Below, one piece after another: positions 22,984 to 26,048 of a stretch of 64,000 nucleotides of DNA (positions are counted from its first letter, which is position 1; every line of letters begins with the position of its first letter). A program made the position numbers and the translations under genes. Source of the stretch: Sporopachydermia quercuum (Eukaryota; Ascomycota; Sporopachydermiomycetes; Sporopachydermiales; Sporopachydermiaceae); the NCBI GenBank assembly GCA_001599295.1, contig BCGN01000002.1, forward strand, positions 496,001-560,000. Direction: 5' to 3'. The notes under the pieces are model-generated. The model made no database searches. It was not told where the DNA came from and saw only the letters and a list, made by a program, of their open reading frames with translations.

Positions 22984-23325
22984 ATGCAGTTCAATAAAAT
23001 CACTCTTTTGGCAATTCTTTATGCCCTTACTGCTAGTACTGCTGCTGCTCCTACTCCTAATACTACTGAAGTTACCAAGAACTTGACTGATTCCGACTAT
23101 AATCTTCCACCTGGAGCAGTTTCATATGTTCTTGAATTTGATGAAGAAGAAGTCCCATTTATTTATTTTGATGAAGACGATGTTCCATCCATTGTTATTG
23201 TCAACTCTACTATTTTGGAGCATTATGAAGAAGCCGGTGAAGGCGGATCTGAATTGAAGAAGAGAGAAGCAGAAGCTGAATCTTGGAGAGGCCAACACTA
23301 TAGATGGGGACAACCTCTCTACTGA
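22984..23325 (+). CDS. MF(ALPHA)1: Alpha-factor-type mating pheromone precursor with a single pheromone unit
   Basis: This 113-residue secreted precursor has the complete layout of yeast alpha-factor. A signal peptide (residues 1-22, core ITLLAILYALTASTAAA) precedes a pro-region with three N-glycosylation sites (Asn 26, 33 and 74). The pro-region also has the hydrophobic acidic blocks typical of the family (GAVSYVLEFDEEEVPFIYF, SIVIVNSTI). A KKR site for Kex2 at 92-94 is followed by an EAEA spacer of the kind trimmed by the Ste13 dipeptidyl aminopeptidase, and then WRGQHYRWGQPLY at the very C-terminus. The last 13 residues match the length of Saccharomyces alpha-factor and share Trp 1, Gly 9, Gln 10, Pro 11 and Tyr 13. 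An extra Glu-Ser precedes the Trp, so the mature peptide may carry two more residues. Only one unit is present; most relatives encode several. Confidence 0.9.
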   Translation: MQFNKITLLAILYALTASTAAAPTPNTTEVTKNLTDSDYNLPPGAVSYVLEFDEEEVPFIYFDEDDVPSIVIVNSTILEHYEEAGEGGSELKKREAEAESWRGQHYRWGQPLY

Positions 23326-23720
23326 AACGAGTTTGGAAAAAGATTTATCGTTTTAGATCGCATCTACATTGATATTTGGCATCTACTGATCACCTCTTGT
23401 ACTCAGAGGCTATAAGATCAGTTTCTTTTATTTCTTCTTTCTATCATAGGTATATCTGCAGATACCTTTTCAGTTATTATTTTTTAGAGCAGTTTGAGTA
23501 GTAATCAATCTAACGTTGAATAAATATGTTTGATTTCAACAATTCCCAAAAGTAATTAAATAAAGTAATTTATAGGAATGATATAATATTGTTCTGGAAG
23601 GAAGAACTTTTTTTACTTTGAGTTTAGTCCAATGCCATNCATTCTTGATGTTCAATTAAGGTTCCAAAAATCACTGAACTCTATTGGAAGTTAATACAAA
23701 CCTTAGAATTATATATAACT
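23326..23720. other. Short convergent intergenic region
   Basis: This is a 395-base 3'-3' interval between the pheromone gene and the mannosidase gene, containing T-rich runs suited to both 3' ends. I see nothing else in it. Confidence 0.5.
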
Positions 23721-26048
23721 TTAAATCACAATTTCATCGTCATACTTTGAGTTCCGTTTTGCTCCTATTAAATTCTTCTTCAAATCATCATCATCAATTA
23801 GCAGCTCATCTTTGGAAACATCTAGCTTCTTTGTATCGAGTTTTATTTTACTCTCATCTTCATTGTCTTGTATTGCTTCAATAACTGCTTCAGCTACTTC
23901 TTCATCTAGCTTCTTTGATGGTGGATTTCCTTTGGGTGTCTTCTTAGATAAGCCAGCTCCAGGTCCTAAATGTGGTTGTTGCTTTGGTTTGCCATATTCA
24001 ACAGAATCTTGTATTGCCTCTTTGACAGTGTCCAAAGTTTCCTTCTTTAAAGGTTTGGAAGGTTTTTGAGCCTCAGGGATCTTTTTTGATCCTTGTTTCT
24101 TCAATAATTCATCAGAAGTGTCATCAGAATACTCATCATCATAATGTTTGGCTAGACTATCTTTGGAATTTGCGTTTTTCAGGGGCTTATCTTCAATTTC
24201 TATATTGCCCTCAGATTTATCTAAAACAGCAGATTCTTCATCTGGAGAAAGTTTTCTCCCTTTCCGTCTATTAACGTTAGCTGCTACATCATTGTCACCC
24301 TTAGAATTGCCAATTTCTGTCTCTTTTCCAGGCTCACTACGTTGCCATCCTGTCTTGAATAAAGGATCCATATCGAATACTGGGAAAGGATGAGCTTCAG
24401 TATTGAACACATTTTCATTCAAGGGTAACACATCAGAGTCATCAAACAACAGATACAAATATTTCAACGTTTCTGACAACCAGAAGCTTTCCATATTATC
24501 AATAAAAGTGGGAGGAACAGTAGTAACGTCTTTCAAAGACGTGAATCCTTGTTCTTCAGAAATTAATGCGTATTTTACAAATGATTCAAAAATACTCCAA
24601 CCCATTTCTCTATAAATAGGATCCTTAGTAATCCTCCAGAGGTAAAACAAAGATTCAACTGTTTCTGGACGCTGTAAATTATGAGTATCAGCGTGCTTTA
24701 TAATGAAATCTTCAACACTGTCTTCATTCGTATTGAAAACAACAATTTCTGGAGCAAGACCGGTTGCTGTTCTAGCATAGGTTTCATAACACGTCTTAGT
24801 CAAATCAGTTGCCAATTGAATGTCTGATTCCTTCATAGCGTCCCAGTCAGAAGAGGACATGGCTGTCTTAAGGTCAACACCTCCTGTTGCTCCTACTGCT
24901 AGCATTCCACCAATAAAACATACTAAATGGTCCATTTTATTGGAAAATTGTCCACCAATGCCATTGGGTAGTTCACCAACAAATTTTAACTTTCCGGGTT
25001 TACTTTGTCTTACTAAATTATCTTTAATACCACGAACAGCTTCTGCATACATTTGCAAGTAGATTTGCTCATTTTCTCTTGTTTGTAGATACTGTTTGAT
25101 GAGATACTCGTAGTAAGAATCACCACGTGAACCAAGACGAATTAAGCTAGTAGTGAATTTACCTGTATCAGGATGAATATAAATAGGAACTAAACCATCA
25201 GTAGCATGATTATCATCTATAGCTTTCATTACTTTCTCAGCAGCTTCCCAGTATAAAGATTCACCAGTCAACTTGGATAAATATTTAAATTCAAGTTGCA
25301 ACGTGGTGGCCTCAGCAGTTGAACTAGCGCCTCTATCTACATGATTTGGAACACCTTTTGATGTTCCAAGGTTAACACTTGAGTAAGGAATTCCAGTTTT
25401 CGAATCGAAGGCACCCATTAGTCTATTGCCAAGATCAGTAGCTCTATCCAAATACAAATCATCCTGCGATAAATAATAGGCAGACAGTAAACCTCCAAGC
25501 ATTCTAATTGTCGTTTCGAAAGTATTTACTTCGTAGTTCATATTGTAATCCAAATCATTAGTAACGAATTCTTTAGCATGTTCTAATTCATCATCCAACT
25601 TCATTAGCATGAGGGTATCCAACGAGTCAACAATAATCCATCCTAAAGGTTTGGGACCCATATTCTTTCCTTTCTTTGACACAGGAGCATATACATCATA
25701 ACCCCAGCCATGCTTTTCATAGGCATTCCACGATATTTTGAAGGCATCTCGTACAGCATTCTGACGATCTTTCCAACTAGCATTCTTTTTGAATAAAGAA
25801 GAAGAATTTGAGACATCTTTGTTTGAGCTTGAGAAAAACCATTTGAATAGAAACCATCCCAAAAGTATCAGGACGAACTTTTTCCAGTACCTCATGATGT
25901 ATTGCTGAATAGTTGATTTTCTGCTCTTTGGTAGAAAACTATCACTTCTAGATGGTTTGTCTTTATATAAAGGTAACTCACTTTCGTTTTTCCCTGTCCA
26001 ACTCTTATAATCTCCTACTGAGGAAGCAAATTTGGTGAAATCCGACAT
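23721..26048 (-). CDS. MNS1: ER/Golgi alpha-1,2-mannosidase, GH47, with long C-terminal tail
   Basis: GH47 enzymes trim alpha-1,2-linked mannose from N-glycans in the ER and early Golgi. The 775-residue protein is a type II membrane protein with a cytosolic N-terminus and an anchor near residues 55-72 (FVLILLGWFLFKWFF). The catalytic domain spans roughly 88-565. Family blocks are clear: AFKISWNAYEKHGWGYD, GWIIVDSLDTLMLM, FETTIRMLGGLLSAYYLS, MDHLVCFIGGML, RPETVESLFYLWR and, at the end, FNTEAHPF, whose Thr binds the catalytic calcium. Beyond this a tail of about 200 charged, low-complexity residues (580-775) has no counterpart in standard Mns1. The tail contains two similar segments (EAIQDSVEYGKPK and EAIQDNEDESK). 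Mns1 itself is about 550 residues, so the tail is the odd feature. Confidence 0.92.
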   Translation of the reverse strand: MSDFTKFASSVGDYKSWTGKNESELPLYKDKPSRSDSFLPKSRKSTIQQYIMRYWKKFVLILLGWFLFKWFFSSSNKDVSNSSSLFKKNASWKDRQNAVRDAFKISWNAYEKHGWGYDVYAPVSKKGKNMGPKPLGWIIVDSLDTLMLMKLDDELEHAKEFVTNDLDYNMNYEVNTFETTIRMLGGLLSAYYLSQDDLYLDRATDLGNRLMGAFDSKTGIPYSSVNLGTSKGVPNHVDRGASSTAEATTLQLEFKYLSKLTGESLYWEAAEKVMKAIDDNHATDGLVPIYIHPDTGKFTTSLIRLGSRGDSYYEYLIKQYLQTRENEQIYLQMYAEAVRGIKDNLVRQSKPGKLKFVGELPNGIGGQFSNKMDHLVCFIGGMLAVGATGGVDLKTAMSSSDWDAMKESDIQLATDLTKTCYETYARTATGLAPEIVVFNTNEDSVEDFIIKHADTHNLQRPETVESLFYLWRITKDPIYREMGWSIFESFVKYALISEEQGFTSLKDVTTVPPTFIDNMESFWLSETLKYLYLLFDDSDVLPLNENVFNTEAHPFPVFDMDPLFKTGWQRSEPGKETEIGNSKGDNDVAANVNRRKGRKLSPDEESAVLDKSEGNIEIEDKPLKNANSKDSLAKHYDDEYSDDTSDELLKKQGSKKIPEAQKPSKPLKKETLDTVKEAIQDSVEYGKPKQQPHLGPGAGLSKKTPKGNPPSKKLDEEVAEAVIEAIQDNEDESKIKLDTKKLDVSKDELLIDDDDLKKNLIGAKRNSKYDDEIVI

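Follow-up and report, generated by a model that had tools for sequence, protein, structure and literature searches.

A single-unit alpha-factor precursor gene of Sporopachydermia quercuum and a multi-unit gene encoding the same predicted pheromone

The pheromone locus and its surroundings

The window analyzed in the present study, a stretch of 64,000 nucleotides, contains a 113-codon ATG-TGA frame with zero ambiguous bases exactly at positions 22984-23325 of the forward strand, the translation of which reads MQFNKITLLAILYALTASTAAAPTPNTTEV...LKKREAEAESWRGQHYRWGQPLY and then stops. A sequence-only reading had proposed an alpha-factor precursor with one unit, and this was borne out: the Pfam profile MF_alpha_N (PF05436) matched residues 7-95 with an E-value of 1.8e-6 and 28.2 bits, the curated cut-off being 22 bits, and one Lys-Arg precedes one terminal 13-mer and TGA. 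The anatomy described in that reading, namely a hydrophobic leader (recognized by eye), three sequons, Lys-Arg, Glu-Ala-Glu-Ala, and Glu-Ser, is also correct in the sequence. The features are as follows.

22984-23325, +: single-unit alpha-factor precursor ORF, 113 aa, MF-alpha2-like, intact (ORF; Pfam MF_alpha_N, 28.2 bits)
22984-23049, +: putative signal peptide, approximately residues 1-22 (hydrophobic run ending TASTAAA; boundary placed by eye)
23050-23259, +: pro-region, residues 23-92, with sequons N26, N33, and N74 (sequence)
23260-23265, +: Lys-Arg, residues 93-94, a kexin-type site before the peptide and the only one in the precursor (sequence)
23266-23277, +: Glu-Ala-Glu-Ala, residues 95-98, Ste13-type dipeptides (sequence; XA/XP signature from excerpts of PMC6339444)
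23278-23283, +: Glu-Ser, residues 99-100 (the corresponding dipeptide is Glu-Pro in all three spacers that can be read in a second gene, on contig C4) (sequence)
23284-23322, +: predicted mature pheromone WRGQHYRWGQPLY, residues 101-113, with the same amino-acid sequence as the readable units of the C4 gene (sequence)
23323-23325, +: stop codon TGA right behind the single unit (sequence)

The predicted pheromone is identical to S. cerevisiae alpha-factor at 5 of 13 residues (W1, G9, Q10, P11, and Y13), in agreement with the earlier description of a divergent middle and a retained Trp1 and GQP-x-Tyr. No relic units were found downstream in 23326-23720, where the best 30-base identity to the repeat unit was 15/30 as compared with 15-18 in 30 shuffles, and an array truncated by a nonsense mutation was rejected for this reason.

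Two genes on the opposite strand flank the pheromone gene and were classified with Pfam: the upstream one is of the lunapark type, and the downstream one encodes a glycosyl hydrolase 47. The glycosyl hydrolase 47 gene (23721-26048, -), which we take to be of the MNS1 type, encodes a charged C-terminal extension of approximately 218 residues, with the Pfam domain ending at residue 557 of 775. LYS1, the best PDB matches of which were saccharopine dehydrogenase, follows next on the same strand, 4 kb from the pheromone gene. The window also contains two xanthine/uracil permease genes (Pfam PF00860; 33274-35052, -, and 41509-43290, +), which are inverted and 91% alike over 1757 bases. Both permease translations carry the same X run, IXAAACGYFXDXXIX, and the N in this pair may stem from a mixing of reads from both copies, or the two genes may have undergone gene conversion recently.

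Regarding the genetic code, CTG is read as Leu, as indicated by CTG codons that sit on leucines conserved in PDB relatives, for example those for residues 547 and 1031 of PIK1 and for residues 631 and 811 of TAF2; TAF2 residue 545 is one of the exceptions. A CUG-Ser yeast such as Saccharomycopsis was rejected on the basis of these codons. The CUG code of Saccharomycopsis fibuligera differs from CTG-Leu, and Pichia kudriavzevii is a CTG-Leu yeast.

The gene on contig C4 and the divergence of the pair

In the genome searched, which comprised 16.4 Mb in 12 contigs, the peptide pattern matched three places, one in the window and a pair, separated by 243 bases, on contig C4. A whole-protein search placed the start of the C4 gene at C4:1448138 and revealed 69% identity to the window protein over residues 1-113 (E 3.2e-50). 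Chance resemblance is excluded by this identity together with the MF_alpha_N family match, and the window locus is confirmed to be a real alpha-factor precursor gene. The whole-protein search and the MF_alpha_N profile search, both of which were extended to E-values of 10, returned exactly two alpha-factor genes and no third. The window locus as a lone gene was rejected, because the search for further alpha-factor genes yielded a multi-unit gene on C4 that encodes the same peptide.

The C4 gene consists, in order, of a leader, KREAEAEP-WRGQHYRWGQPLY, KREADAEAEP-WRGQ, exactly 100 N, QHYRWGQPLY, KREADAEAEP-WRGQHYRWGQPLY, and a stop. It has the same prepro plan as the window gene and at least three units, the readable ones of which encode the identical 13-mer; the run of exactly 100 N resembles a gap of unspecified size, and the number of units is thus at least three and possibly more. 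The sequons N33 and N74 are common to both genes, and residue 26 of the C4 protein is Glu. The MF_alpha_N scores of the two loci in the genome profile search were near-equal (28.6 and 27.9 bits), which suggests that neither leader has decayed. Downstream of the multi-unit gene, a 1161-residue protein is encoded (L010:1339-4824, -) that is presumably of the multi-pass ThrE/PRM10 type.

Between the window gene and the C4 gene, compared over 111 of 113 codons after two were dropped for N, dS was 0.79, dN 0.17, and omega 0.22 (bootstrap 0.12-0.39), a pairwise value that averages both lineages and alone cannot prove constraint on the window copy. The leader alone gave an omega of 0.27 (bootstrap 0.14-0.51). 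The 13 peptide codons showed three synonymous and zero non-synonymous differences, and the probability of zero amino-acid changes in the peptide at the rate of the leader was 0.002. The low omega, the unchanged peptide, and the equal Pfam scores make the window gene look old and maintained and not recently truncated; an old, maintained minor paralogue, which these sequence comparisons support without proving, fits them better than a fresh truncation. A truncated copy with a full multi-unit gene elsewhere had been named as the finding that would speak against the sequence-only reading, and one half of it proved correct: the multi-unit gene exists on C4, whereas mere truncation is not supported, given the omega of 0.22 and the lack of downstream relics. 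We infer that the single unit was derived by repeat loss, in which the middle of an array was removed by unequal recombination; such a loss fits because the single unit combines the spacer type of the first C4 unit with the stop of the last.

When the 87 open frames of the window (at least 80 residues) were compared with 20 kb around the C4 gene, only the pheromone frame matched at E 1e-3. The genome has one full copy of LYS1 and one 32-residue fragment on C7. A hybrid or whole-genome duplicate is disfavored by the single full copy of LYS1 and by the pheromone gene being all that the window and the C4 20 kb have in common. With LYS1 as the sole neighbor checked for duplicates, its copy number and the unshared surroundings make a dispersed gene duplicate more likely, which is what the pair looks like from its sequence context. 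The LYS1 fragment (C7:458395-458493) is 72% identical to LYS1 residues 223-254 and lies inside a 52-residue open frame, as a relic or an exon.

Receptor, processing enzymes, and upstream regions

The search for an Ste2 receptor, to which the divergent peptide had pointed, was successful. One Ste2 is encoded in the genome, on contig C5 (E 4.8e-78), and its three PDB matches are alpha-factor receptor chains of the S. cerevisiae type; one Ste3 is also encoded. Ste2 is identical to its S. cerevisiae counterpart at 121 of 303 residues (40%) over the 306 alignment columns compared. Excerpts of PMC9220813 name 20 Ste2 residues near the ligand, 6 of which are identical in the two receptors, the present one thus having a divergent ligand pocket; R58 and Y266 are retained. 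In S. cerevisiae Ste2, as described in the same excerpts, D275 touches His2 of alpha-factor, N205 touches Leu4, and K269 adjoins Trp1. The counterpart of D275 in the present receptor is Glu, and residue 2 of the peptide is Arg. N205 aligns with Leu in a gapped part of the alignment, and residue 4 of the peptide is Gln, while K269, around which the alignment is also gapped, has no counterpart. These pairings between the pocket and the peptide agree with coevolution but do not show it, and are suggestive only.

Two proteins of the DPP-IV/Ste13 type (DPPIV_N), with 806 and 1018 residues, are encoded in the genome, and from their sequences are plausibly Dap2 and Ste13, in unspecified order. Regarding kexin, the P_proprotein HMM, which matched 1 of 14 control genomes, had zero matches in this genome, and the Peptidase_S8 HMM had only two, both of the proteinase-K type by eye. 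A 206-residue catalytic query, the soundness of which was evident from its PDB matches to kexin (E 5e-133) and furin (2e-68), also had zero matches, in a search that scores the best candidates only and in which a blank with no positive genome beside it shows nothing. Zero matches were likewise obtained with the HGTRCAGE DNA pattern when two mismatches were allowed. Since KR-EAEA is kept in both precursors, kexin activity is expected, and the likeliest reason for the missing kexin is an assembly gap. The gene of one S8 protease, of the proteinase-K type by eye (L021:2308-3694), is split over several frames, as by introns or frameshifts. MAT-alpha1 had no match in the genome with its Pfam HMM, a blank that does not show absence.

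In the 600 bases upstream of the two pheromone genes and STE3, zero 11-mers were shared among the three with at most one mismatch, and six shuffles gave 0, 0, 0, 0, 0, and 1. Mcm1/alpha1-type patterns were used in the same comparison, and none of the specific patterns tested was present upstream of all three genes. The TTNCCNNNTNNGG pattern had one match, upstream of the C4 gene, and loose CCNNNWWNNG matches, counted with no control, occurred upstream of all three. TGAAACA had one occurrence upstream of the window gene, two upstream of the C4 gene, and none upstream of STE3. Shared alpha-specific control of the two pheromone genes and STE3 is unsupported by this upstream comparison.

Roles of the two genes

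Taken together, this CTG-Leu budding yeast most probably has a pair of paralogous alpha-factor genes for one and the same pheromone, with the window gene as the minor one beside the C4 gene, a reading to which we assign a probability of roughly 0.88. We infer the expression and processing of both genes, and the division of labor between them, as follows. The precursor would enter the secretory pathway, with its pro-region being N-glycosylated; a kexin-type protease would cut behind Lys-Arg, and a Ste13-type dipeptidyl aminopeptidase would then remove the Glu-Ala pairs. The Ste2 of a cells would then respond to WRGQHYRWGQPLY released from alpha cells. The multi-unit C4 gene probably gives most of the pheromone, to which the window gene may add a small extra dose. 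The low-dose pheromone proposed in the sequence-only reading may hold at most for the window copy, as the same peptide is encoded by the multi-unit C4 gene.

The ambiguity between a 13- and a 15-residue product, which had been pointed out earlier, is real, with Glu-Ser in the window gene versus Glu-Pro in the C4 gene. According to excerpts of PMC6339444, the Ste13 signature is in many cases an XA or XP dipeptide; the last spacer dipeptide of the window gene, ES, is neither, and that of the C4 gene is EP in three of three readable spacers. The Glu-Pro of the C4 spacers argues for the 13-mer as the main product, whereas the window copy, with its Glu-Ser, may release either the 13-mer or a 15-mer. 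These signatures and spacers are consistent with a functional specialization, in which Glu-Ser would be a poor Ste13 site and the resulting 15-mer, ESWRGQHYRWGQPLY, a ligand of weaker or altered activity; in addition, alpha-factor owes part of its affinity and efficacy at Ste2 to its N-terminal residues, as stated in parts of PMC9220813. Two DPP-IV-type proteins are encoded, however, and the case involves one substitution in one genome, and we regard such a specialization as unlikely. DPP-IV-type enzymes may accept Ser slowly. It is rather improbable that the window gene has been kept for a different product, with Ser blocking Ste13 trimming and the two genes supplying two Ste2 ligands, the 13-mer and a 15-mer of altered efficacy.

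Repeats evidently troubled the assembly, as the C4 array is interrupted by exactly 100 N, and the near-identical permease pair with the same X run is located nearby; a real window gene with several identical units that were merged by the assembler was, therefore, considered. The ORF is free of N, however, and the expected unit-to-unit junction (PLY-KRE) is absent, with a spacer of the first-unit type being combined with the terminal stop, all of which render a collapse very unlikely. We give equally little credence to a pseudogene decaying after duplication, which would account for the single unit and for the spacer without an XP or XA dipeptide beside the peptide, but not for the open frame, the near-equal MF_alpha_N scores of the two genes, the omega of 0.22, or a peptide without amino-acid changes despite an overall dS of 0.79.

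The minor paralogue that we favor has counterparts in known systems. The number of units per precursor ranges from one, in S. castellii, to 16, as cited in excerpts of a survey of 250 secretomes (PMC6339444), and the single-unit form, which was regarded as unusual in the sequence-only reading, thus has a precedent in print; the alpha-pheromone gene of Saccharomyces (Naumovozyma) castellii is described there as giving one peptide, as in the window gene. In S. cerevisiae, the available parts of PMC6339444 and PMC5850478 describe a similar arrangement of two genes, MF(ALPHA)1 and MF(ALPHA)2, with a KR and EA/DA prepro plan, unequal unit numbers, and a near-identical product. MF(ALPHA)2 has two units versus four in MF(ALPHA)1 (PMC6339444), and the little pheromone that it makes is enough for conjugation (PMC5850478). 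Unlike S. cerevisiae, the small gene in the present genome has one unit instead of two, the middle of the peptide differs, and no segmental duplication was seen between the window and the 20 kb around the C4 gene or at LYS1.

Two precursors are likewise found in Saccharomycopsis fibuligera, the MF-alpha1 of which has nine units and MF-alpha2 three, with different spacers and an identical mature peptide (excerpts of PMC5106798). These genes belong to the two subgenomes of a hybrid and encode an unrelated 11-mer (PMC5106798), whereas the present pair lies in one genome, has different neighbors, and encodes a 13-mer. The MF-alpha peptide of Pichia kudriavzevii, WRWHKWFRNQAIY, which is present five times, also has 13 residues starting with WR, but it is encoded by one gene of five units and has a C-terminus without GQP (excerpts of PMC6053246). 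The WRGQHYRWGQPLY string was not found in the full texts searched, a scope outside which most subscription papers and all supplements fall.

Single-unit precursors (PMC6339444) and the combination of two genes, unequal units, and an identical peptide in S. fibuligera (PMC5106798) are already known from the parts of these papers considered here, and the general picture of alpha-factor action is unchanged. The present analysis adds a pheromone sequence and a clear two-gene case, in which one unit and at least three units encode an identical product, and which may be of use in studies of unit number versus pheromone dose and of the pairing between peptide and receptor.
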